DNA from: Hyphomicrobiales bacterium
Lineage (GTDB): Bacteria > Pseudomonadota > Alphaproteobacteria > Rhizobiales > Beijerinckiaceae
NCBI GenBank assembly: GCA_947455725.1
Contig: CANGPL010000019.1
Coordinates: 1 to 49,286, forward strand
Direction: 5' to 3'
Length of the DNA stretch: 49,286 nucleotides
In this document: one piece after another, positions 12,057 to 36,267 of the stretch
Layout: the number at the start of each line of letters is the position of its first letter
Numbering within the stretch: position 1 is the stretch's first letter
Program-made: the position numbers and the translations under genes
Notes under the pieces: generated by a model
What the model saw: the letters and a program-made list of their open reading frames with translations, nothing else
What the model was told of the DNA's origin: nothing
Database searches by the model: none

Positions 12057-13130
12057 CTATTTTATCCCATATAAAGGCAAATAGACGTGGAAGGTCGAGC
12101 CCGAGCCGAGCTCGCTTTCAATGATCAACCGGCCCCGGTGGCGATTGACGATATGCTTTACAATCGCAAGCCCGAGCCCCGTTCCACCCGTTTCTCGGCT
12201 GGCCGATGCATCCACGCGATAAAAGCGCTCGGTCAGGCGGGGAAGGTGCTCATTCGGGATGCCGGGGCCATAATCCCGAACGGAAAAGTGACATTCGCAG
12301 GGCTGGTCTGAATTCGGTTCACGAAATTGGAGCGCAACATCAAGTTTTTGGCCCGTTTGACCGTATTTGATGCCGTTCTCGATCAGGTTTTCGAGAACCC
12401 GCATCAATTCATCGTGGTCGCCGATCACATTAACAGGCTGATCCGGCAAGGTGAGGTGAAACGCGACCTGCCGCTCTTCAGCCACGGGCCGGAGCGTATC
12501 GATAATTTGCCGGATCAAGGCGCTGAAATCGACTTTATCGACGGGGCGGCGGTGCTCGCTCATCTCGACGCGGGATAGGGACAATAAATCATCGATCAAG
12601 CGGGCCATGCGGCGGCCTTGCTCGCGCATAATGTCTAAAAACCGGCTGTGGGCCAGCGGATCATTGCGGGCGGGGCCTTGAAGGGTTTCGATAAAGCCCA
12701 AAAGCGAGGCGAGCGGCGTGCGTAACTCATGGCTCGCATTGGCGACGAAATCGACGCGCATCGACTCGAGACGACGTGCTTCCGTGAGATCGCGGAAGAC
12801 AAGGACGGCGGCAGGCGCGGTGCGCGGACTCGCATTGGCGGATGGGGAAAGGCCTACGACCTGAAACTCGAATAATCGCTCGACAGGTGATCTCTCGGTA
12901 ATGGTCCCGCGCGACATATTTGCCTTAGCACCCAAGACGTGATCAATCGCATCGATCAAATCGGGGGCACGAAGGGTAAAGGACAAGGGCGTGCCACGCG
13001 TTAATGCAGGCCAGGCCGCAAGCGAGGCCGCATTGGCAAAAGAAACCACTTTGCGCCCGTCCACCATAATCACGGGGTCGGACAGCGCATCAAGTACTTC
13101 TGGCAATAATGCCGATGGGAGGCCATCCAT
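12057..13130 (-). CDS. phoR: Phosphate regulon sensor histidine kinase PhoR, without membrane segments
   Basis: Histidine kinase that phosphorylates PhoB when phosphate is scarce. The 357-residue protein has a PAS-like domain (about 10-115), the dimerisation/phospho-acceptor motif FVANASHELRTPL with His134, and an ATPase domain with the N box ENLIENGIKYG, DYGPGIP and GGTGLGLAI. Its position upstream of pstS supports PhoR. The oddity is the N-terminus: unlike most PhoR proteins it has no transmembrane helix, and an in-frame TAA lies two codons before the ATG, so the frame cannot simply be extended. It may be held at the membrane through PstB/PhoU, or signalling may be cytosolic. Confidence 0.88.
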   Translation of the reverse strand: MDGLPSALLPEVLDALSDPVIMVDGRKVVSFANAASLAAWPALTRGTPLSFTLRAPDLIDAIDHVLGAKANMSRGTITERSPVERLFEFQVVGLSPSANASPRTAPAAVLVFRDLTEARRLESMRVDFVANASHELRTPLASLLGFIETLQGPARNDPLAHSRFLDIMREQGRRMARLIDDLLSLSRVEMSEHRRPVDKVDFSALIRQIIDTLRPVAEERQVAFHLTLPDQPVNVIGDHDELMRVLENLIENGIKYGQTGQKLDVALQFREPNSDQPCECHFSVRDYGPGIPNEHLPRLTERFYRVDASASRETGGTGLGLAIVKHIVNRHRGRLIIESELGSGSTFHVYLPLYGIK

Positions 13131-13163
13131 GCCTTAGCCGTCCTTCTTCGTCCGATTATTCGC

Positions 13164-14177
13164 TTACTTGCCGAGATGGCGTTCGACGATTCGCTCACGG
13201 ATGCGTGACAGTCGCATGACAATTTCATAAATGCCAAGGCTGCCAATCGCCAGGACAAAGGGTCCGAGGTAATAGCAGAGACGAAAAAGCAGAAGCGCGC
13301 CGATCAATTCCGGCTTTGCAACGCTGGAGAAGGCACCGAGAATGGTGCTTTCCAACACGCCAATGCCGCCGGGGACATTGCTGATGACGCCCAAAATGCA
13401 GCCAAAGGCGTAGACGGCGGCGAAGGTTTCAAAGGCGATGCCGTGGCCTTCAGGCAAAAGCACATAAAGAACGGCGGAGGCCGCGCAGACATCAGCGGCA
13501 CCAAGCGCCAATTGGCCGAGCGAGACTTTAAGCGTCGGGAGTTCAATCAAAAAATGCTTGATGCGGACATGACGGCGTTTGGCCGCCGCCCAGACGAGAT
13601 AAACCAAAATAGCGGAGAGAACCGCCATGCCAGCGAGCTGATTAAGATGCGCGGTGGCTTGATTGATCGCGGAAATCGCCTCCGCCTGCCACATCAAGCC
13701 GACGCCCACGACCACCGCCATGCCCAAAATAAAGGTCATGCCGGCAATCAATGTGAGGCTCATCACCTTTGAGGAGGAGACGCCGCTTGCCGAATAGATG
13801 CGGTAGCGAACCGTTCCGGCGGTTAAAAGCGGGAAACCCAGTGTGAAAGAGATGGCATAGCTCGTAAAGGAGGCGAAAACGACCGTTGCCAGCTTTATTT
13901 TCAGACCAAGCTGGCGCATGGCCAAGGAGTCATAACCTGCCAAAAAGACGTAGCTCAGCACCGTGAAGCCAATGGCCAATAATAATTGCCCGCCACTTGC
14001 CCGATGAATGCCTTGTTCGATGTCAGCCAAACTCACATCCGCAAGCTCGGCTCTAAGAACAAAAAACGAGCCCACGATCAGCGCGACGCTTATAAGCGGG
14101 CCAATCCAGCGGGTCAGTTTATGTTCCGGCTCGGGCTTTTCAGGCGCGGATATCGGTTGATCAGTCGAACCCGTCAT
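13164..14177 (-). CDS. UPF0104 / lysylphosphatidylglycerol synthase transmembrane-region family protein
   Basis: Integral membrane protein of 337 residues with about eight hydrophobic segments. It carries hallmarks of the MprF N-terminal (flippase-like) family, including YRIYSASGVSSSKV (about 125-138) and NVPGGIGVLES (about 268-278). There is no aminoacyl-transferase domain, so it cannot make lysyl-phosphatidylglycerol by itself; lipid translocation is a guess from the family. It lies 33 bases upstream of phoR on the same strand and may be cotranscribed with it. Confidence 0.8.
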   Translation of the reverse strand: MTGSTDQPISAPEKPEPEHKLTRWIGPLISVALIVGSFFVLRAELADVSLADIEQGIHRASGGQLLLAIGFTVLSYVFLAGYDSLAMRQLGLKIKLATVVFASFTSYAISFTLGFPLLTAGTVRYRIYSASGVSSSKVMSLTLIAGMTFILGMAVVVGVGLMWQAEAISAINQATAHLNQLAGMAVLSAILVYLVWAAAKRRHVRIKHFLIELPTLKVSLGQLALGAADVCAASAVLYVLLPEGHGIAFETFAAVYAFGCILGVISNVPGGIGVLESTILGAFSSVAKPELIGALLLFRLCYYLGPFVLAIGSLGIYEIVMRLSRIRERIVERHLGK

Positions 14178-14261
14178 GCGTTCCTTCTAAGATCCTGATC
14201 CCGCCCATCCGCGGTAAAATCTGCGTGTTCTATGGCCTGTCGCCCGGCAGGAAGCAAGCCG

Positions 14262-15341
14262 TTACCCGGCATAGGCGGCAAGTACGGCTTCAGACACGCC
14301 GACCGAGGCGCCTGCGGCGGTAATTTGCAGCCAGGTGTTACGATCAACGGGAATGCCATGTGCCAGCCGCTCCGCTTTGGTTGCCCGCTCAGGATCACCG
14401 GGCAAGAGAACCGTCGGCGACTGACCTTCAACTGGTAATTGGGCCCAGTGTACGAAGCTTTCAAGCTCTGAGAGGTAAGTTGCTTGCGTGCCAAGGGCGT
14501 CGGGCGACACAATAATCGAGAGCATATTGTTGATGATCGCCTTTTGGGTGACCGGACCCTTCATCGCGTGCCCGCCGGTTAGGGCTCCCGCCAACGCCTC
14601 GCAGGCGAAGGCCAAGGTCCAGCCTTTATGCTCGCCAAAGGGCAATATCGCGCCGGTGGGTGCCTCAAACATCGCCGCCGGATCATTGGTCGGCCGCCCT
14701 GCGGCGTCGATCAAGGTGCCGTCCGGAACCGGCACACCCTTATTATAGGCGACGCGGATTTTGCCATGCGCCAATTTACTCGTCGCAAAATCGACGATAA
14801 CCGGTTCAGCCTCCCGCCGTGGAATACCGATCGCGATCGGATTAGTGACGAGTTTTGGCACTTTGCCGCCAAAGGGCGCAACGACGGGATCGGCGATTAC
14901 ATTGACAAAATGGATCGAAACGAGCCCTTCGCGTGCGCATTGCTCGGCCCAATGGCCAATTCTGCCGATGTGATGGCTGTTGCTGAGGGCTACAATCGCG
15001 GAGCCAGTTTTTTTAGCGCGCTCAATACCCATCACCATCGCATCAAAGGCAATCGTTTGGCCAAGGCCCAGACCGCCATCGAGGACAAGCGCCCCGCCGA
15101 TATCATTCACGACGCGCGGCGCGTGATTGAGCGTGAGTTCTTTGGCTTTGAGCGACGCGATATAGGCCGGGATCATGCCGACGCCATGCGAGTCATGGCC
15201 CTTGAGATTGGCCTCGACGAGATGGTCAGCGACGAGATCGCATTCGCGCTCATTCGATCCAGCTGATCGGAATATGTCTTTCACCACCGTGCGAAGGGTG
15301 GCTTCGGTGATCCTGAGTTCCTGCCCTGATGGAAGCGACAT
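14262..15341 (-). CDS. Ldh2-family malate/L-lactate/ureidoglycolate-type dehydrogenase
   Basis: NAD(P)-dependent 2-hydroxyacid dehydrogenase of the Ldh2/MDH2 family, a fold unrelated to the usual malate dehydrogenases. The 359-residue protein has the N-terminal signature GHDSHGVGMIP (about 53-63), AIVALSNSHHIGRIGHWAE (about 116-134) and PFGEHKGWTLAFACE (about 236-250). The substrate cannot be decided from sequence; malate, lactate, sulfolactate and ureidoglycolate are all used in this family. It starts 18 bases after the prfC stop on the same strand, so it may be read from the prfC transcript. Confidence 0.85.
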   Translation of the reverse strand: MSLPSGQELRITEATLRTVVKDIFRSAGSNERECDLVADHLVEANLKGHDSHGVGMIPAYIASLKAKELTLNHAPRVVNDIGGALVLDGGLGLGQTIAFDAMVMGIERAKKTGSAIVALSNSHHIGRIGHWAEQCAREGLVSIHFVNVIADPVVAPFGGKVPKLVTNPIAIGIPRREAEPVIVDFATSKLAHGKIRVAYNKGVPVPDGTLIDAAGRPTNDPAAMFEAPTGAILPFGEHKGWTLAFACEALAGALTGGHAMKGPVTQKAIINNMLSIIVSPDALGTQATYLSELESFVHWAQLPVEGQSPTVLLPGDPERATKAERLAHGIPVDRNTWLQITAAGASVGVSEAVLAAYAG

Positions 15342-24999: not shown

Positions 25000-25452
25000 T
25001 CACACGCCCGTTGAACCATACCCCCCCGCGCCACGGGACGTATCGCCCAGCGCGTCGCGCTCTTCCCAAACGGCCTTTGTAACGGGCGCGACCACCAATT
25101 GAGCGATGCGCATACCGCGGGATATGTCAAAGGGCTGATCACCGTGATTGATCAACAGCACGGATACTTCACCCCGGTAATCGGCATCGATGGTGCCCGG
25201 CGCGTTCAACACGGTAATACCGTGCTTTAACGCCAGACCCGACCTTGGCCGAACCTGTCCCTCATAGCCATTGGGTAATTCAATACACAATCCTGTCGGG
25301 ATTAACATCCTTTTCCCGATTTCTAATGTAAATATTTTATTTTCCGGAATAGCGGCGGTTAAGTCCATCCCCGCCGCCGCATCGGTTGCATAGGTTGGCA
25401 AAGGAAGGCCCGCGCCATGGGCCAGCCGACGCACCCCAATCGACACGCTCAT
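25000..25452 (-). CDS. dut: dUTP diphosphatase
   Basis: Hydrolyses dUTP to dUMP, keeping uracil out of DNA and supplying thymidylate synthesis. The 150-residue trimeric-type enzyme has the family motifs in order: [45 protein letters not shown] and the flexible C-terminal GGYGSTGV. The ATG at 25452 overlaps the coaBC stop as ATGA and gives the normal length; a 27-codon upstream extension into coaBC was rejected. Confidence 0.95.
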
Positions 25453-26666
25453 TGACGACTCGTTTTTGAAAATTTTGTGGCAAAAAGGGCAACCAACCGC
25501 TCGGCTACCTCGGCTTTGCTGAGCTTCGGCCAACTGTCGACGGCATCCTTCGAGACGATGTGCACGGCGTTCATCTCCCCGCCCATGACGCCACTATCGC
25601 CGCCGACATCATTGGCAACGATCAGGTCGCACGCTTTTTTGTCGAGCTTGCCGCGCGCGTAATCCAAAACATTCGAGGTTTCAGCCGCAAAGCCAACAAC
25701 CAGCGATGGCCGGTGATGGGTAAGATGCGACACCGTCGATAAGATATCCGGATTGGGCGCGAGCGACAAAGCGGGCGGGCCGGCATCGGTCTTTTTAAGC
25801 TTATCATGGCTTTGAGTAGCGACGTGCCAATCGGCCACTGCTGCGCAAAAAACCGCGATATCGGCGGGCAGCGATTTTTCAACGGCCGCTAACATCTCAA
25901 CCGCTGTCTCAACCGGGATAACCGTCACACCAACCGGATTGGGAATGGAAACGGGCCCCGAAACGAGCGTAACCCGTGCGCCCGCGCGTGCGGCAGCTGC
26001 GGCAATCGCATGGCCCTGTTTGCCCGAAGAGCGGTTGGCAATATAGCGCACCGGATCAATCGGCTCATGCGTCGGCCCGGAGGTGACGAGCACGTGGCGG
26101 CCTTCGAGCGGACGGGAGCCCGGTGCAAGTGCGCTCTCAATGGCGTCAGCAATCCTAAAAGGCTCGGCCATGCGGCCCGGGCCATATTCGCCACACGCCA
26201 TTTCGCCATCATCCGGCCCGACGAATAGGACACCATCGGCTTTTAGCGTCACAAAATTGCGCTGGGTGGCCGCGTGCTGCCACATCCGGACATTCATGGC
26301 GGGTGCCGCGAGCGCGCGCTTATCGGTTGCGAGCAGAGCGGTGGAAGCGAGATCATTGGCAAGCCCATGGGCCATTTTTGCCAAAAGATCCGCGGTGGCA
26401 GGGGCTACGACGACGAGATCGGCGGAGCGTGATAATTCAATATGGCCCATCTCGGCCTCATCCGTCAGCGAGAAGAGATCGCTAAATACCTTCTCGCCGG
26501 TAAGGCTTGAGACAGAGAGCGGCGTCACAAACTCGGCACCAGCCTTGGTGAGGATGGCGCGCACGGAACCACCGCGCTTTTTGATCTCACGGATCAGCTC
26601 CAGCGATTTATACGCCGCAATGCCACCGCCGATGATGAGAAGAATGCGTTTGCCTGCAAGCGCCAT
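25449..26666 (-). CDS. coaBC: Bifunctional phosphopantothenoylcysteine decarboxylase / phosphopantothenate-cysteine ligase
   Basis: Two consecutive steps of coenzyme A synthesis. The 405-residue protein has an N-terminal flavin-dependent CoaC domain ([24 protein letters not shown] and the [10 protein letters not shown] substrate clamp) and a C-terminal CoaB ligase domain ([25 protein letters not shown], the DKLKK lysines). It is coupled to dut by a four-base overlap. In other Rhizobiales, coaBC and dut stand next to ubiB; here an accessory segment of about 3.4 kb separates them. Confidence 0.95.
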
Positions 26667-26905: not shown

Positions 26906-27187
26906 ATGCTGATGGGACGTGCGATAGCGGTATTGCTGGCTGTGATGACTCTTGCTGCGTGCAGTGGTGGAGGCGGGGGTGGTGGGGGCGGGGGAGGAAA
27001 GACCCAAGCCAGTTCGACGACGACTTATACGGCGGCAGGAGCCAATATCATTGCCAAAGTGATTAGCTATTATACGGATGGTACTCAAAGTGTCACAACC
27101 GGATCGGTTGTAACAAAAGGGCCTACAACCGTCGCAGCAGACCATGTTACAGCGAGTGGTAATTTTTCATTTGGCTGCTGCGGATAA
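26906..27187 (+). pseudogene. N-terminal lipoprotein part of an S8 peptidase, ended by an in-frame TAA
   Basis: Begins MLMGRAIAVLLAVMTLAACSGGG: a lipoprotein signal with lipobox LAAC, then a run of eleven Gly and a Thr/Ser/Val-rich stretch. A GGGAA ribosome-like site precedes the ATG at 26906; the ATG at 26912 is an alternative, and the frame is open back to a TTG at 26891. The frame stops at TAA 27185-27187 but continues without any shift into the S8 peptidase gene, so the two read as one 572-residue precursor broken by a single nonsense codon. It is either the dead start of a pseudogene, a short lipoprotein, or the first part of a read-through product. Confidence 0.65.
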
Positions 27188-27199
27188 GCACAAATCGTT

Positions 27200-28624
27200 G
27201 TGGAGCCATCTGTCACATCAGCTCCCGTATTGACGAGTTCCGTGTACCCAAGCTTTTGGACATCAGGAGGTACTGTCATTCCGCCTCATGTGTCTCCGGC
27301 TGCAGGTACTTATTTTGACGGAACAGCCTACTCGGCCGACGGATCGGCGGGTGCTCCTTTCCGGCAGGCAACTCTAGCGCCGAACGGGCCAACAGGTGCC
27401 GGTGCCATCAATGATCCGAATGCCGTCGTTACCACAGGGCCAGCATGGTATATTGCTTCGTATAGAACGAAATCTTACGACCTTCGCTGGGGCACACCCG
27501 ATCCGGCAGGGCCGGGATATGTCAATAATTACAAATCCGGAAGTTATACGCTTGATAAATCTTTGACCATTTTTGGCGGCGTCGCGGCAAAGGTCGGTTG
27601 TACGAATGTCGCCAATGTCGCAAATTGCGGACCAACAATTGCTGCGCCAAATGGTGATGTTCTAGCTGCGTGGTCGAATGGCTGGACGGGTAAAGGCAGC
27701 ACGATTCTGATTTACGATAATATTGGTGGCTTCGCCTTAGACGATAACAAGCAGAAAATAAAAAATAGCGATGGCAATTTTGCCCTTTCTGCACACCCTG
27801 CAACCGTCATGACGCTTGCCATTCGTTATGCACCCGGTGCGACAGCTTTAGGCCTTTCTTATAATAACGACTCGACAACAATCGTTGACTCAACATTCGG
27901 ATATTCCATCTCACCATCACAATCGACAGCAAAAATTCACGTCATCAATGCCAGCTTTGGAGCCGATCTTGCCGGCCATATTGGCCGGGAAAATTTGACA
28001 TCAAAACCGTGGACTGCGGACGAATTGGCAGAAGCGAGAACCTATTTTTCAGGCTATCAAACCACAAAAGTGGCTTATATGAAATCAAGCAATTTCAGCG
28101 GTGGATATGACCTAAGCGATGCCGTGATTACGAAATCAGCGGGCAATGACCACATCAACTATATCGATAATCCTCTGAATTATTATTTGCTCAACGATAG
28201 CGCAACATTGGCTCGCCTGGTGGTTGTTGGTGCCTTAGATGGAAATGGAACACCTTCGGCTCGAACCGCGATTGCGTCCTACAGCAATACGCCCGGCTCG
28301 GATCCGTTATCGCAAAGTCGCTTCCTCACAGCATCCGGCGGCGTGGCCTTTCAATCAAACTCGATTGCATATGATGGCATCACGCAACTTGGATCCAATC
28401 AAGGCAATGTAGGCACCTCCTACGCCGCACCGCGTGTGGCTGGTTATGCCGCTATTGTTCGACAAAAATTTCCAAACCTGACGGGGGTCAATACAGCGGA
28501 TATTCTCCTCGCCACCGCGCGCTATGACACGCTCAAATGTTATCCCAATTGCGACAAAGCGATTTACGGCCAAGGTGAGGCGTCGCTCTCGCGGGCCTTA
28601 GCGCCCGTCGGCTATTTGCGATGA
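27200..28624 (+). CDS. S8 (subtilisin-like) serine peptidase, catalytic part downstream of an in-frame stop
   Basis: Subtilase of about 474 residues counted from a GTG at 27200, in the same frame as the lipoprotein leader. The catalytic triad is recognisable: Asp in KGSTILIYDN (about 175), His in SAHPATVMTL (about 198) and Ser in GTSYAAPRVAG (about 406). The oxyanion Asn lies in KSAGNDH. The usual HGTHVAG motif is degenerate (AHPATVM). Without the leader it has no signal peptide, so it would stay in the cytoplasm if made alone. Composition is more AT-rich than the flanking core genes, suggesting recent transfer. It may be a pseudogene. Confidence 0.75.
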   Translation: MEPSVTSAPVLTSSVYPSFWTSGGTVIPPHVSPAAGTYFDGTAYSADGSAGAPFRQATLAPNGPTGAGAINDPNAVVTTGPAWYIASYRTKSYDLRWGTPDPAGPGYVNNYKSGSYTLDKSLTIFGGVAAKVGCTNVANVANCGPTIAAPNGDVLAAWSNGWTGKGSTILIYDNIGGFALDDNKQKIKNSDGNFALSAHPATVMTLAIRYAPGATALGLSYNNDSTTIVDSTFGYSISPSQSTAKIHVINASFGADLAGHIGRENLTSKPWTADELAEARTYFSGYQTTKVAYMKSSNFSGGYDLSDAVITKSAGNDHINYIDNPLNYYLLNDSATLARLVVVGALDGNGTPSARTAIASYSNTPGSDPLSQSRFLTASGGVAFQSNSIAYDGITQLGSNQGNVGTSYAAPRVAGYAAIVRQKFPNLTGVNTADILLATARYDTLKCYPNCDKAIYGQGEASLSRALAPVGYLR

Positions 28625-28646
28625 AAAATATTTACTGCCACAGGCG

Positions 28647-29357
28647 ATGATTGCGCAGGAAAAAATCGGTATTTCGTTTCATCAAAAATTAATCGGCCTA
28701 AAAGCAACTATCCTTGTTTATTATTCTTCGATTGTTGTTCTGTTGCTTATAAGTCTAACGTTATCAGCGGTCGCCGATAATCTCGAACCCGAATACTCGC
28801 TTTTGCCAACCTCGGCCAAGCAAGCATTCATCATGGATGCGCAATTGCCGAGTGAATATTGGGGTGCCCTTGATGAGCGGCGCTAAGTTGCTGTCACAGG
28901 ACTTTTTATCGGTGAAAAAATGTTTGCTGCCGGTGGGCAGTCGCTGATGAGCCGGCCCGACCGTGTGTGCTCGTTATATGACAGCGCCGTATGCTTCGAC
29001 ATCAACCGATTTTATTCCTCTTCGATGCCGCAAATTTTAGTATCGGGATTTCTCATGCTCGATGGAAGTGATGCCATTACCTTCGGGATTGATACGGGTT
29101 ACGCCTCACCCAAATTAAAAATAAGCCCATCTATTTTGCTCGGTCTTTCGAAGCGCTGGTTTACGTCAGAAAAGCGCGATGCGCACTTCATTGTTGAGGC
29201 AAGCAGTTGGCTTGGGCAATCGGTCTCGCATGAACCGTGTTACGACGCGTATAATCGCGCTTATTATTGCGGCAATTTATCAGCTTGGAGCGATTTTACC
29301 TACGAGTCACACCCGACCAATTTTTACATTAAGCTTTGGTACGAGAAGGCGTTTTGA
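28647..29357 (+). pseudogene. Exported protein of unknown function with an in-frame TAA (companion of the S8 peptidase)
   Basis: One open frame of 237 codons, broken only by TAA at 28884-28886. The first piece (28647-28886) has an N-terminal hydrophobic segment (ATILVYYSSIVVLLLISLTL) that looks like a signal peptide or anchor. The second piece (from about 28920) has a Cys-containing segment (EPCYDAYNRAYYCGNLSAWSDF, a 20-plus residue stretch at about 29230-29300 described here by its two Cys and aromatic residues), alternating beta-like strands and a terminal Phe, as in outer-membrane or beta-rich proteins. I do not recognise the family. It begins 22 bases after the peptidase stop, so the two form a unit. 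Its end overlaps the convergent antitoxin gene by 29 bases. Confidence 0.55.
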
Positions 29358-29676
29358 TACTGGCTGTTTGTCGCGGGCGGACAGGTTTTTCTTTGACAAA
29401 ATGAATACGAAGCTTGGTACCCGTGGCCTCCGCAAAGCGCGTAAGCGTGCGAGTAGATGGCATTGTTCGACCACTCTCTAACCGCGCAATGGCGGCTTGC
29501 GTCGTACCCATTTTTTGCGCGACATCTTCCTGCGTCATAGAAGCTTGAGCGCGCGCAGAGATAAGCGCCTCGGCGAGTGCGAATTCTTCTTCTAAGGCAT
29601 CATAAGCGGCAACGAATTCGGGGTCTTTAAACCACTCTTTAGCCGCCTCTTCGACGGGAATATACATCCGCTTCAT
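29329..29676 (-). CDS. XRE-family antitoxin (HigA-like)
   Basis: A 115-residue protein with a helix-turn-helix of the Xre/Cro type (ASMTQEDVAQKMGTTQAAIARLESGRTMPSTRTLTRFAEATG, about 45-85) and an acidic N-terminal helix region that could bind the toxin. It is preceded by GGGAG at good spacing and lies 35 bases after the toxin gene. The toxin-first order is that of higBA modules. It would neutralise the toxin and repress the operon. Its 3' end overlaps the convergent exported-protein gene. Confidence 0.85.
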   Translation of the reverse strand: MKRMYIPVEEAAKEWFKDPEFVAAYDALEEEFALAEALISARAQASMTQEDVAQKMGTTQAAIARLESGRTMPSTRTLTRFAEATGTKLRIHFVKEKPVRPRQTASIKTPSRTKA

Positions 29677-29711
29677 TTAACGCTCCCTGCGCGCTTAAGA
29701 GCAAATTCGAT

Positions 29712-29996
29712 TTAGCGGCGTGGTGTTTTTTCCGTCTTTTTTATAAAAACATGCACAATAACAACACGCTCCCTCTTAATCGTAACATAGGCTGCGCGAG
29801 CAATCCCGCTACGTCCTTTCATCCTCATTTCCCAAAGTGGGCCATCAAGGTGTTTCACATAAGGTTCACGCATGCCCAAAAGCCCATGTCCTTCAATCAT
29901 ACGAGATATTCGCAAAAAACTTGCGACAATGTCCGTCGGAAAGGCTTCAAGCTTACGGCGAAGCTCGTCATTTAAAAACTCAACCGTCCAAGCCAT
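29712..29996 (-). CDS. RelE/HigB-like (Gp49 type) mRNA-interferase toxin
   Basis: A 94-residue basic protein with the pattern of phage Gp49-like/HigB toxins: FLNDELRRKLEAFP, GLLGMREPYVKHLDGPLWEMRMKGRSGIARAAYV and the C-terminal VVIVHVFIKKTEKTP. Members cleave mRNA on the ribosome. I chose the ATG at 29996; an in-frame TTG at 30017 is possible. It is the first gene of the pair with the XRE antitoxin. It completes the accessory segment between coaBC and ubiB. Confidence 0.85.
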   Translation of the reverse strand: MAWTVEFLNDELRRKLEAFPTDIVASFLRISRMIEGHGLLGMREPYVKHLDGPLWEMRMKGRSGIARAAYVTIKRERVVIVHVFIKKTEKTPRR

Positions 29997-30104
29997 CAGA
30001 ACATACCATTTTTGCAATAATTTTCAAGCGCCCTTTCCGGCGTTTATCGGTTGCAAAGATGATCGTTTAAAGGATCTCGTACAGCTGTCTTAAAAGACAG
30101 GAAT

Positions 30105-31670
30105 TTAAAGCACGCGCATCGCAACCGCCAGCAACACAGCTGCAATAATCCAGAGCGCAAGATTACCCCAGCGATTACGGCGGGCCTCGGCGCGGCCGAT
30201 TTCGGCAATCGAACGAGCATCCAAGGGAAAGCCTTTATCCGTTGCATGCGCCAATTGCTCGGCGAGGGCTTCAGCGCGGGAAGCAAGGGCGGGTAAATGC
30301 CCGACCATGCCGGCAAGCGATACAGCACCGCGTCCGAGCTCTTCAATCTTTCCGATAGGGCCAAGATTGCGTTCGATCCAGCTGCGCACAACGGGCTCTG
30401 CTGTCGTCCACATATTGAGATGTGGATCAAGCGAGCGGCTAACGCCTTCCACCACCACCATCGTCTTTTGCAGCATCACGAGTTCGGTGCGCGTGCGCAT
30501 ATCGAAGAGACCGGTGACTTCAAATAACAGCGTCAAAAGTTTCGCCATCGAAATCTGATCGGCAGAGCGCTGATGAATAGGCTCGCCAATCGCGCGGATG
30601 GCTTGTGCGAAATCATCAACCGAGTGGCGGGCAGGCACATAACCTGCTTCAAAATGCACTTCCGCCACGCGGCGATAATTGCGCGTGATAAAGCCCAACA
30701 AAATTTCCGCCAAGAAACGGCGCTCTTTTAAACCGAGCCTTCCCATAATGCCGAAATCGACGGCGCAGAGGCGGCCTTCGGCATCAACAAACAAATTGCC
30801 GGGATGCATGTCCGCGTGGAAAAATCCATCCCGCAACGCATGCTGCAAAAAGGACTGGATAACAATTCGGCCCAAGCCTTTTAAATCATGACCCGCGGCC
30901 GCTATGCCCTCAATATCATGGAGTGGAATGCCCTCAATCCATTCCATCGTGAGCACTTCGCGTGCGGTTAAATCCCACACCACGGTCGGCGCGCGGAACT
31001 CGGCATCGCCTTTGGCGTTCTCGGCCATTTCTGACAACGCCGCAGCTTCGAGCCGCAAATCCATTTCCATCGTCACCGAACGGGCGAGCGTCTCAACGAC
31101 TTCGATGAATTTAAGACGACGCGCCTCAGAGGATACAGACTCCATAAACTCGGCGGCATAGGCCATGGCGGACAAATCGCGGCGAAAACGGGCGCGGACA
31201 TGTGGGCGCAAAACCTTAACAGCAACCGTCTGGCCCGATTGGGTTACCGCCCGATGCACTTGCGCGATGGACGCCGCTGCAATCGGCGGGCTGAATTCAG
31301 AAAATAACGCATCCACCGGTTTGCCAAACGCTGCTTCAATCGCAGCCAACGCGTCGGGCATACCAAAGGCGGGAATACGATCTTGCAGCTTTTCCAAATC
31401 ACGCGCGACACGCACGCCAACAACGTCCGGACGCGTGGCCATAAATTGGCCGAGCTTGATATAAGATGGCCCTAGCCGAGTAAGCGCTGCGACCAAGCCC
31501 TCGGCGCTCGAAGCGGCTCCGCGCTTTTCGATCAGACGCGCCGCGCGCACCAAAAGGCGGATGCCAGTGGGCGCTTCAGAAAGATCGACCAAAGCAAAAG
31601 CGCCTTCGCGCGCCAGCACAAAGCCAACGCGGGCCAATCGCATCAAATGGATGGGAGCAAAACGGGGCAC
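30105..31670 (-). CDS. ubiB: Ubiquinone biosynthesis regulatory kinase-like protein UbiB
   Basis: Atypical (ABC1/ADCK-type) kinase-like ATPase at the inner membrane that supports ubiquinone synthesis. The 521-residue protein has the KxGQ motif region (LGPSYIKLGQFMATRPD), the Ala-rich loop AAASIAQVHRA, VAVKVLRP, and FHADMHPGNLFV plus VDFGIMGRL in the catalytic part. A C-terminal hydrophobic helix (WGNLALWIIAAVLLAVAMRVL) anchors it. I chose the GTG at 31670, seven bases after the ubiE stop; a longer frame would overlap ubiE. Confidence 0.93.
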   Translation of the reverse strand: MPRFAPIHLMRLARVGFVLAREGAFALVDLSEAPTGIRLLVRAARLIEKRGAASSAEGLVAALTRLGPSYIKLGQFMATRPDVVGVRVARDLEKLQDRIPAFGMPDALAAIEAAFGKPVDALFSEFSPPIAAASIAQVHRAVTQSGQTVAVKVLRPHVRARFRRDLSAMAYAAEFMESVSSEARRLKFIEVVETLARSVTMEMDLRLEAAALSEMAENAKGDAEFRAPTVVWDLTAREVLTMEWIEGIPLHDIEGIAAAGHDLKGLGRIVIQSFLQHALRDGFFHADMHPGNLFVDAEGRLCAVDFGIMGRLGLKERRFLAEILLGFITRNYRRVAEVHFEAGYVPARHSVDDFAQAIRAIGEPIHQRSADQISMAKLLTLLFEVTGLFDMRTRTELVMLQKTMVVVEGVSRSLDPHLNMWTTAEPVVRSWIERNLGPIGKIEELGRGAVSLAGMVGHLPALASRAEALAEQLAHATDKGFPLDARSIAEIGRAEARRNRWGNLALWIIAAVLLAVAMRVL

Positions 31671-31677
31671 GTTGGTT

Positions 31678-32463
31678 CTACACTTTCCAGCCGGAATGAA
31701 GCTGAACGATGCCGCCTGACATAGGCCTTGCGCGAACCTCGCCAAAGCCCGCCTCGCGGATCATGGTTGAGAAACGACCAGGCGACGGGAAGCGCCGGAT
31801 CGATTCCACCAAATATTGATAGGGCTCGGCATCGCCCGTAACCATTTTGCCCATGGGAGGAATGATCTTGAACGAGAAAAGATCATAGATTTTGTCGAGC
31901 ATCGGCACATCGACGGCAGAAAATTCGAGGCACATGAAACGGCCACCGCGTTTCAACACGCGGTAGGCCTCGGCCAAAGCTACGTCGATACGCGGCACGT
32001 TACGGATGCCGAAAGCGATGGTGTAGGCGTCGAACTCATTATCCTCAAAGGGTAGCTGCTCGGCATTGCCTTGCACGAATTCGATCTGACCGCTCAGCAC
32101 CTTGGGCGTCCGGTCACGGCCTACGCGCAGCATATCGCCATTAATATCACAAACGGTCGCGCGGCCACGCGGGCCTGCCGCTTCCATGACCCGGAAGGCC
32201 ACATCTCCGGTGCCACCCGCCACGTCCAACAGATTAAACGGCTTGTTCTTATTGGGCCGGAGGGAGGAGACGAGCGCGTCCTTCCAGGCCCGATGCAGGC
32301 CGAAGGACATCAGATCGTTCATCACATCATAGCGCTCGGCAACCTTATGGAAGACGTCGTCAACGAGAGCCTGTTTGTCGCCAAGGCGAACGGACGAAAA
32401 GCCAAAATGCGTTTCATCGCCGCTATCTCGGCCGCTATCCTGTCGGGTGTCCGTATCCGTCAT
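31678..32463 (-). CDS. ubiE: Demethylmenaquinol / 2-methoxy-6-polyprenyl-1,4-benzoquinol methyltransferase
   Basis: SAM-dependent C-methyltransferase of ubiquinone synthesis. The 261-residue protein has [19 protein letters not shown] near the N-terminus, motif [26 protein letters not shown] and the UbiE signature [11 protein letters not shown]. The stretch [11 protein letters not shown] and the C-terminal [13 protein letters not shown] complete it. It heads the ubiE-ubiB pair and is divergent from mutM. Confidence 0.95.
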
Positions 32464-33503: not shown

Positions 33504-34277
33504 ATGGCGTATGAAACCATATTGACGGAGATCCGTGGCAAAGCGGGGCTGATAACCATCAACCGTCCGGACGCTTTAAACGCGCTCAATTCGGTTGTTA
33601 TTCGCGAAATCACCCATGCGCTTGATGCGTTTGAGCGCGATGCGTCGATTGGTGCCGTGGTGCTGACGGGTTCCGAGAAGGCCTTTGCCGCTGGCGCAGA
33701 CGTCAAAGAAATGAAGGATCTTTCCTTCCCCTCCGCCTATCTCGACGATTTTGTCACCGCTTGGGACGCTATCCCTGAGCATCGTAAACCCCTGATTGCC
33801 GCCGTTTCCGGCTTTGCGCTCGGTGGTGGGTGCGAATTGGCGATGATGTGCGATTTCATTTTGGCCTCCGATACTGCCAAATTCGGGCAACCGGAAATCC
33901 GGCTCGGCATTATGCCCGGCGTTGGCGGCAGCCAGCGTTTAACGCGTGCGGTGGGCAAAGCGAAAGCCATGGAAATGTGCCTCACGGGGCGGATGATGGA
34001 TGCCAATGAGGCCGAACGTGCAGGCCTCGTGTCACGGATCGTGCCGGTGGCTGACCTTGTCGACGAGGCTATGAAAACCGCGCAAACCATTGCCGGTTTC
34101 TCGCGCCAAAGCGTTTTGATGACCAAAGAAGCCGTTAATCGCGCCTTTGAGACGACGCTTGCGGAAGGTGTCCGTTTCGAGCGGCGGCTGTTCCAGTCGC
34201 TTTTTGCGACCGAGGACCAGAAAGAAGGCATGACAGCCTTCATCGAAAAGCGTCCAGCAGCCTTTAAAGACCGCTGA
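33504..34277 (+). CDS. Enoyl-CoA hydratase
   Basis: Crotonase-fold enzyme that hydrates 2-enoyl-CoA in beta-oxidation. The 257-residue protein has the oxyanion-hole segments [11 protein letters not shown] (about 61-71) and [18 protein letters not shown] (about 98-115). The first catalytic Glu is in GGGCELA and the second in [15 protein letters not shown]. It occupies the position between mutM and rpsT where Rhizobiales commonly carry a crotonase gene (recalled). The TSUP gene starts directly after its stop (TGAATG), so the two are probably cotranscribed. Confidence 0.92.
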
Positions 34278-35075
34278 ATGGACCTAACGCTTGATGCAAT
34301 AGCGCTTTTATGCGCCACCGCCTTCGCTGCCGGTTTTGTGGATGCAATTGCCGGTGGCGGCGGATTGCTCACCATTCCAGCGATGCTCTTTGCCGGTATC
34401 CCGCCAGTGGCAGCAGTCGCGACCAATAAGGTGCAGGGAACGCTCTCAATTGTCTCTGCACTTTATACCTATAACCGGTCCGGCATCGTGGAATGGCGCG
34501 CGGGGGTGCCAATGGCGGCCATGTCGTTCACGGTCGGGATTGGTGGGGCGCTATCGGTCCATATTTTGCCGAAAGACGCCATTGCCGCGCTCATTCCGGC
34601 GCTTTTGATTGCCGTTGCACTTTATTTTGGGCTGACGCGGGGATTGGGGGATTCAGACCGCAAGAGCCGCCTCACACGCGCGGCCTTTATCCTCGTGGTC
34701 GTGCCCCCCATTGCCTTTTATGACGGATTTCTAGGGCCGGGTGCCGGATCCTTTTACGCGCTCGCCCTCATTGCCTTACAGGGTTTTGGCATCACGCGGA
34801 CGACGGCTATGTCAAAATTGCTCAATGGCGGCAGCAATGCGGGGTCTTTGTTGCTGTTTTCGCTCGCTGGCAGCGTTATATGGCCTTTGGGGCTTGGAAT
34901 GGGCGTTTTTTCGATGCTAGGCGCTCAAATTGGCTCACGGCTGGCAATTAAACAGGGCGCACGGATCATTCGCCCGCTGATTGTGCTCACCTGCTGCACG
35001 CTTTCGATCCGAATGTTGATGGACCCAACCAATCCAGCCCATCTCTTTCTCGTGAATCTGCGATTTCTGGGCTGA
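34278..35075 (+). CDS. TSUP (TauE/SafE, YfcA-type) membrane permease
   Basis: Integral membrane protein of 265 residues with about eight hydrophobic segments and the two TSUP repeats: FAAGFVDAIAGGGGLLTIPAML (about 17-38) and FYDGFLGPGAGSFYALALI (about 147-165). Family members move sulfite, sulfoacetate or other organosulfur anions; the substrate cannot be told here. It begins one base pair after the enoyl-CoA hydratase stop. Confidence 0.88.
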   Translation: MDLTLDAIALLCATAFAAGFVDAIAGGGGLLTIPAMLFAGIPPVAAVATNKVQGTLSIVSALYTYNRSGIVEWRAGVPMAAMSFTVGIGGALSVHILPKDAIAALIPALLIAVALYFGLTRGLGDSDRKSRLTRAAFILVVVPPIAFYDGFLGPGAGSFYALALIALQGFGITRTTAMSKLLNGGSNAGSLLLFSLAGSVIWPLGLGMGVFSMLGAQIGSRLAIKQGARIIRPLIVLTCCTLSIRMLMDPTNPAHLFLVNLRFLG

Positions 35076-35222
35076 AGGACATTGACGCGTCACGCTGAAG
35101 CCGGTATGAACCCCGCCACACAAGGGCATTCTTGAGTTTCGTCAGGGGTGCCTTCAACCTTCCAACCATGGGTGGTTATCCATACTCCTTCAAAGGAAAT
35201 GGTTCCGCCGTGAGGTATACCA

Positions 35223-35489
35223 ATGGCCAATACGACTTCTGCAAAGAAGGCCACCCGTAAGATCGAACGCCGCACGGCCGTAAACCGTAGCCGTCGTTCG
35301 CGCGTCCGCACCTATGTCAAGAAGCTTGAGGAAGCTTTGAAGGCCGGTGACAAGGCAGCCGCAACGGAAGCCTTCAAGCATGCCGAGCCTGAGTTGATGC
35401 GCGCTGCGCAAAAAGGCGTTCTGCATAAGAACACCGCTTCCCGTAAGGTTTCTCGGTTAGCGAAAGCGATAAGCGCACTCAGCGCGTAA
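35223..35489 (+). CDS. rpsT: 30S ribosomal protein S20
   Basis: Primary 16S rRNA-binding protein of the small subunit. The 88-residue, Lys/Arg/Ala-rich helical protein begins [27 protein letters not shown] and ends [18 protein letters not shown], typical S20. A strong intrinsic terminator follows. The leader between the TSUP gene and rpsT (35076-35222) holds its own promoter, presumably. Confidence 0.97.
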
Positions 35490-35520
35490 CCCATTAGGGT
35501 GCAACCTTATAGTTGTAAAA

Positions 35521-35547
35521 TAGCCCCGCCAAAAGCGGGGCTTTTTC
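35521..35547 (+). terminator. Intrinsic terminator of rpsT
   Basis: Stem AGCCCCGC/GCGGGGCT with loop CAAAA, followed by TTTTTCTTT, 32 bases after the rpsT stop. Confidence 0.93.
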
Positions 35548-36267
35548 TTTGGCTAAATGCAATTTTTTACAAAAATGCAACAGAATTATTTGCCCCATTT
35601 TTCAAATTTTTTGCTTGACAGAACATTAGCGAAATCGGGCCAATGGTGACATTTCATTGACGCTAAACGCACAAAATTAACTTAGCATTATCAATGGTTT
35701 AACGCATAAGATGCTTTTAGATGTTCGGCAAATGCCCTTTGTGGGGCGTCCAAGCTAAGACTGGAAAATAAAAAATAAATTTTTTCGATGTGGAATAAGA
35801 TTAAGGAAACGTGAACGAAGCCAAGCGTTTGCAGCAAACTGCGTAATTATGACAGGCTTTGTCTTGGCCGCTTATCGGAAATTTCAAGCTTAGGTTGTGC
35901 TCGGTCCGTTGCGTCGTTTTTTTTCGGTGTGTAAGACTCGCATCTGTCAGCGCGGCTTGCGATGATCGTTTCACAGGCAATCAAGACAGAACCTCCTCAA
36001 CTATTGGGGCGGAGGATCTTGGCCTAAAACGAGTGCAGCCTAGGTGACGCGAGTTAAGATGAAGCGTTTTCATTTTCTAACGCTTCATGAAAGAGTGATG
36101 ATAAGGGAGATAGATGGATGCTGGCCTTCTCGACTGTTTCATATGCGAGCACTCCATTATCGATGGTCACCATCCATGGTTATTTCGAACATTGTCCAAA
36201 CTGATTTTTGAGCCGTCAATCTGTTGCGTTTTTGTTTTTAAAATATCGAATTGGAATTTAAAGTCTT
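35548..36267. other. Long non-coding region upstream of dnaA (candidate control region; origin not shown)
   Basis: About 0.72 kb without a credible gene. The first 170 bases are AT-rich with A/T runs. It holds one GANTC site (35935-35939), a CtrA-like TTAA-N7-TTAT (35677-35691, one base off TTAA-N7-TTAA) and a perfect 10+10 inverted repeat (36059-36088). I found no clear cluster of TTATNCACA DnaA boxes, so an origin is not supported. A frame of 87 codons at 36114 with a GGGAGA ribosome-like site overlaps the dnaA start and is probably not a gene. Confidence 0.5.
36059..36088. repeat. Perfect inverted repeat upstream of dnaA
   Basis: Arms ATGAAGCGTT and AACGCTTCAT with a 10-base spacer, about 180 bases before the dnaA ATG. 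No T-run follows, so it is not a standard terminator. It could be a regulator site in the dnaA promoter or leader. Confidence 0.5.

Follow-up and report, generated by a model that had tools for sequence, protein, structure and literature searches.

The window analyzed here, a stretch of 49,286 nucleotides, corresponds to contig C19 in a draft genome of 2.98 Mb (G000, the source genome; 128 contigs, 90.5% complete). Between two genes that we take, from their sequence, to be coaBC-like and ubiB-like, it carries a gene for an S8 peptidase (26906-28624) followed by a gene for a putatively exported companion protein (28638-29357), and each of the two is cut by a single in-frame TAA (Table 1). Translation of the S8 gene gave one internal stop, at codon 94, plus its terminal stop, and translation of the companion gene likewise gave one internal and one terminal stop. 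An XRE/Gp49 toxin-antitoxin-like pair (29329-30017) adjoins the companion gene, the Gp49/RelE-like gene likely being the partner of the HTH gene next to it; a similar pair lies at the same place in a relative, G006.

Table 1. Features of the interrupted locus and its flanks, in window coordinates.
Feature	Position	Strand	Basis
coaBC-like gene, upstream flank fixing the orthology of the locus	25449..26666	-	Comparison with relatives
S8 gene, 5' piece: lipoprotein signal with LAAC lipobox and Gly run, then the first part of a variable linker, 93 codons	26906..27184	+	Translation; alignable with intact G006/G007 copies
In-frame TAA no. 1, within poorly conserved linker	27185..27187	+	Translation, alignment with relatives
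S8 gene, 3' piece: S8 (subtilase) catalytic part and nearly invariant C terminus, to TGA 28622-28624	27188..28624	+	Pfam PF00082, alignment
Companion gene, 5' piece: signal-peptide-like N terminus, 79 codons in all, ATG at 28647	28647..28883	+	Translation, alignment
In-frame TAA no. 2, within conserved stretch; sense codon in relatives	28884..28886	+	Translation, alignment
Companion gene, 3' piece, conserved Cys kept	28887..29357	+	Translation, alignment
XRE-type (HTH_3) antitoxin-like gene, 29-base overlap with companion 3' end	29329..29676	-	HTH_3, E 1.3e-13
Gp49/RelE-like toxin-like gene	29712..30017	-	Gp49, E 2.2e-19
ubiB-like gene, downstream flank	30105..31745	-	Comparison with relatives

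By its domain and catalytic motifs, the S8 gene product can be classed as an S8 (subtilase) peptidase. The piece downstream of the stop (27200-28621) matched Pfam Peptidase_S8 over residues 211 to 441 of its 474 residues (E 1.8e-13; 50.9 bits against a curated cut-off of 21.8), whereas the piece upstream had no match to this Pfam family. The motifs of the Asp/His/Ser triad and the oxyanion Asn, which presumably mark the catalytic part, were seen by eye in eight of nine aligned S8 copies, including that of the source genome; the exception is the second copy of G010. The upstream piece contains a LAAC lipobox followed by a Gly run, again read by eye. Across the alignment, the N-terminal parts of the S8 proteins are strongly variable and the C terminus is nearly invariant; the last ~50 residues of all S8 copies, around APVGYL, differ far less from paralogue to paralogue than the remainder of the chain. 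As a guess, this C terminus might be recognized by the companion or by a sorting step.

For the companion, no credible match was obtained in Pfam, NCBIfam, or the PDB (the weak matches reached at best E 0.068 in Pfam and E 0.43 in the PDB profile search), and the predicted structure of the G006 companion has a mean pLDDT of 35. The match of the companion profile in the source genome spans 28728-29354 and contains one TAA. Of 199 genomes sampled in the family, this profile matched 6, and all 6 belong to one genus (1 of 43 genera); of 249 genomes in a sample of the order, it matched the source genome alone (1 of 112 genera). Relatives of the companion were not found on the viral contigs searched.

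Our first-pass annotation of this stretch, made before any homologue was consulted, had described one in-frame TAA per gene, flanked by long open frame before and after, which translation confirmed. It also stated that the first stop parts the export signal from the enzyme and that the second splits a hydrophobic N terminus from a Cys-containing C-terminal part. Both descriptions agree with the pieces as delimited here, since the lipobox lies before the first TAA and the Peptidase_S8 match only after it, and since the signal-like N terminus and the conserved Cys of the companion fall on either side of the second. Its claim that neither gene is frameshifted holds for the net frame of both; the linker near the first TAA is too divergent and gapped for the claim to extend to a local, compensated change.

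The pair is intact in 4 of the 12 genomes of the genus, where the S8 match lies in a single open frame of 570 (G006), 578 (G007), 887 (G004), or 665 (G010) codons; a single frame of 218, 218, 236, or 256 codons, respectively, holds the companion match. At the site of the first TAA, these four copies have no stop and the frame is open, while the source genome has its one TAA. In these four genomes and in G003, the pair sits between coaBC-like and ubiB-like genes, and because the flanks are the same, we regard the pairs as orthologues at one locus. Both members are interrupted in 2 of the 12 genomes, namely, the source genome and G003. Four others have the locus without the pair, the matched segments of ubiB and coaBC being 70 (G001), 73 (G005), 575 (G009), and 604 (G002) bases apart; in G009 and G002, an antitoxin-like gene was seen by eye in place of the subtilase pair. 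The two least complete genomes (G008 and G011), which gave no match to either gene, were left unjudged. In all 10 judged genomes, the locus pair is wholly intact, wholly broken, or wholly absent, and none of the six pairs present is half broken. This live-or-die-together pattern hints at a functional bond between the lipoprotein subtilase and an orphan family of exported proteins, although with six pairs it is only suggestive.

Related genes were also observed away from the locus. Contig C1 of the source genome has a 599-codon S8 frame, as well as a 912-codon S8 frame with an intact companion behind it. This second subtilase-companion pair of the genome (L024 = G000:C1:24000-42000; S8 match 34140-35516, companion 35533-36177) is intact, and a further S8 frame there (match 30255-31760) has no companion directly behind it. 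Outside the locus, S8 frames without a companion occur on C1 and, as a contig-edge piece, on C143 of G010. A second S8 frame in G010 (C81, L023, about 12480-14320) is open over 613 codons and keeps the conserved C terminus without catalytic motifs or lipobox, and it is possibly a pseudo-enzyme.

Beyond the stops, the pair in the source genome carries few scars. Where every other aligned copy has the same residue, it departs at 3 of 91 columns in the S8 gene and at 0 of 54 in the companion (3 of 145 together), and the four intact orthologues show 0 to 4 departures per gene at such columns. On the branch leading to the source genome, dN/dS was 0.131 versus 0.139 elsewhere for the companion (P = 0.85) and, for the S8 gene downstream of its stop, 0.113 versus 0.151 (P = 0.51). 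When the companion was divided at its stop, the values were 0.42 versus 0.21 before it (P = 0.21, 59 codons) and 0.08 versus 0.12 after it (P = 0.28, 155 codons), neither difference being significant. Given that ubiB on the same branch was, if anything, more constrained (0.018 versus 0.047, P = 0.007), the lineage is not relaxed as a whole. One tree was used for all branch tests, though ubiB alone favored another, and the S8 and G003 branches were near saturation. Since dN/dS gives no sign of relaxed selection on the pair, the interruption should be recent, not real, or tolerated; on such long branches, dN/dS is unable to tell a recently broken gene from one that is still used.

From the two stops and three departures, a neutral-decay estimate gave about 1% divergence since loss (95% interval, 0.26 to 2.5%, flat prior). 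At 1% neutral divergence, 0.8 stops, ~7 departures, and 1 to 2 frameshifts are expected (the last figure assuming an indel:substitution ratio of 0.05 to 0.1), and 2, 3, and 0 were observed. Stops are therefore mildly overrepresented relative to other damage in the source genome, as they are in G003.

We also searched the source genome for other interrupted genes. A homology scan of its stretches against relatives covered 79 distinct places and 27,476 codons; some of these places are antisense frames, so that they do not equal 79 genes. Stops occurred at six: the S8 gene, the companion, L072:14601 (just upstream of the likely start of its gene), two places opposite a better gene, and a short, ambiguous place at L072:12704-13084. 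Apart from the latter, no further clearly interrupted sense gene was found among the 77 other aligned places. With stop-to-stop queries, 10 of the 79 places had been flagged, and 5 fell away once the queries were cut to the start codon; on inspection, all five had stops before the likely start of the gene. A second comparison, with stretches of G006 and G009, covered 19 places and 6,522 codons, which may partly repeat the first set, and its one stop-bearing match lay opposite a better gene. The reverse comparison covered 18 places in G009, two of them with stops, and 15 in G006, none with a stop. Since so few other stops appeared in aligned places, the source genome is not riddled with false ones. 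A coding-potential scan for in-frame stops listed 38 candidates in 449 kb of the source genome and 32 in 414 kb of G003, most of which looked like tandem genes. It recovered placed breaks in 675 of 1,008 (G000) and 697 of 981 (G003) trials when run without its last two filters, yet as a positive control it missed both stops of the pair in the source genome and listed only the companion stop of the pair in G003. Because of this failure, we relied on the homology scan.

The interrupted pair of G003 is more heavily altered. Its S8 gene contains a TAG, a TAA, and a TGA and its companion one TGA, and no frameshift is needed to align the two genes, with their four stops in total. The stops lie in different alignment columns from those of the source genome, and a stop common to the two was therefore rejected. 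At columns invariant in all other aligned copies (the second S8 copy of G010 excluded), G003 differs at 20 of 108 for the S8 gene and at 15 of 69 for the companion, which has lost two Cys; plain divergence accounts for part of this, as G003 is the most distant orthologue. The intact paralogous companion on C1 of the source genome departs at 27 of 81 columns. On the G003 branch, dN/dS was raised for the S8 part (0.331 versus 0.139, P = 0.03) and for ubiB (0.101 versus 0.033, P = 4e-6), was close to being so for coaBC (0.096 versus 0.057, P = 0.06), and was not raised for the companion (0.092 versus 0.141, P = 0.39). Stops were present at 5 of 78 aligned places in G003, comprising the pair, two conserved genes, and one short, ambiguous place. 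The two conserved genes, with an in-frame TAA at L086:9535 and L082:6230, are presumably amino-acid-transporter-like and FlgI-like, respectively. As a whole, therefore, the G003 genome is either decaying or richer in errors.

How, then, should the two TAAs in the source genome be read? Both genes have a disrupted frame where their orthologues are intact, which is one mark of a bacterial pseudogene, and the pair is intact, broken, or absent across a single genus while the rest of both genes is unscarred. A dN/dS that is not elevated on this branch is what a very recent break would give. Recent inactivation fits best, and we consider it probable that the source genome has lost, together and very recently, both members of a dispensable exported accessory pair, a lipoprotein subtilase and its companion. 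The intact second pair on C1 of the same genome counts against this reading, as does the mild excess of stops over other damage. An error in the assembly or consensus, or a minority allele picked by the assembler while the dominant strain is intact, would leave genes that look whole apart from two TAAs, and the draft is fragmented and incomplete; such an artifact is nonetheless unlikely, given that the scans disclosed no other clearly interrupted sense gene at the 77 further places (the ambiguous one aside) or at the 19 more. Two independent random nonsense errors in adjacent genes would be improbable at that rate, and the flanking coaBC- and ubiB-like genes have no internal stops.

Low-level read-through, or stops acting as translational dampers on a working pair, would be in keeping with the absence of a frameshift and with selection that is not measurably relaxed on this branch. 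Belinky et al. 2021 (PMC7918605) argue that, for many in-frame stops in bacteria, dN/dS stays below 1 and the stop is tolerated, and further that such stops are usually short-lived. The first-pass annotation had remarked that both stops are followed by G, which is true; TAAG also ends 6 of the 35 genes picked from the open reading frame list of the window, so that here it is an ordinary terminator. The stops of G003 lie elsewhere, no intact relative has any, and the stop positions are not conserved, which together make read-through very improbable. The argument of the first-pass annotation against a changed genetic code stood up, and that candidate was rejected, as TAA is the commonest terminator of these 35 genes (19 of 35). 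Scarcely credible is the idea that the pieces are separate working genes with internal starts at GTG 27200 and ATG 28920, from which the open reading frame listing does give 474 and 145 codons. Alignment of homologues at the TAA sites showed both parts joined as one continuous frame in intact copies rather than second parts standing as genes of their own, the downstream pieces would lack an N-terminal signal, and inspection by eye showed a weak ribosome-binding site at most ahead of ATG 28920 and nothing good ahead of GTG 27200. Among the three options that the first-pass annotation had left open, recent inactivation thus comes out ahead, read-through is unsupported, and assembly error keeps a lower weight.

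On the favored reading, the pair is an accessory unit, located between coaBC and ubiB in a single genus of the Alphaproteobacteria (order Rhizobiales), and in the source genome each of its genes was struck by one nonsense change. If translation ends at the first TAA, the predicted product is a lipoprotein of 93 residues that lacks the enzyme; if it ends at the second, a signal with a short N-terminal piece is predicted. The downstream pieces lack an export signal and would therefore stay inside the cell even if translated. The pair in the source genome is, judging from sequence, most likely nonfunctional, and the loss most likely recent on the scale of species divergence. We infer the order of events and the coupling along with the loss of function: the two products may work together, such that the loss of either removes the reason for keeping its partner, which would fit the joint interruption in the source genome and, separately, in G003.

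Recent bacterial pseudogenes include nonsense-inactivated accessory genes. The present pair resembles them in having in-frame stops where relatives are intact, in its patchy presence, and in its variable locus, but it differs in that two adjacent, seemingly coupled genes were hit with almost no other damage. NalP and SphB1 are lipoprotein subtilases of the autotransporter type, and the enzyme of the pair shares with them a lipobox, a Gly run, and an S8 domain; in NCBIfam, the intact G006 S8 protein gave weak matches to T7SS mycosin and a fusolisin autotransporter, both far below the cut-offs. In contrast to them, the intact G006 chain has no autotransporter beta-barrel in Pfam (Peptidase_S8 only), and a separate companion of no known family follows it. 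The pair also resembles the genes under selection treated by Belinky et al. 2021 (PMC7918605) in combining an in-frame stop with low dN/dS, whereas the large-scale part of that study concerns stops common to at least two species, and the source genome and G003 share none.

A bolder reading would be that the pair forms an undescribed two-part export system of one genus, whose two genes live or die together and are silenced again and again by in-frame stops, not by indels, the stopped forms perhaps serving as reversible on/off alleles in natural populations; we regard this as a long shot. The ordinary kind of gene loss, in a clean case of a recently broken accessory pair, is most likely. At this locus, a gene caller would report plausible "genes" that are in fact fragments. 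On the likeliest reading, the pair is mostly a tidy example of very recent gene loss, and its indirect use lies in the hint that it gives at a bond between the subtilase and its companion.
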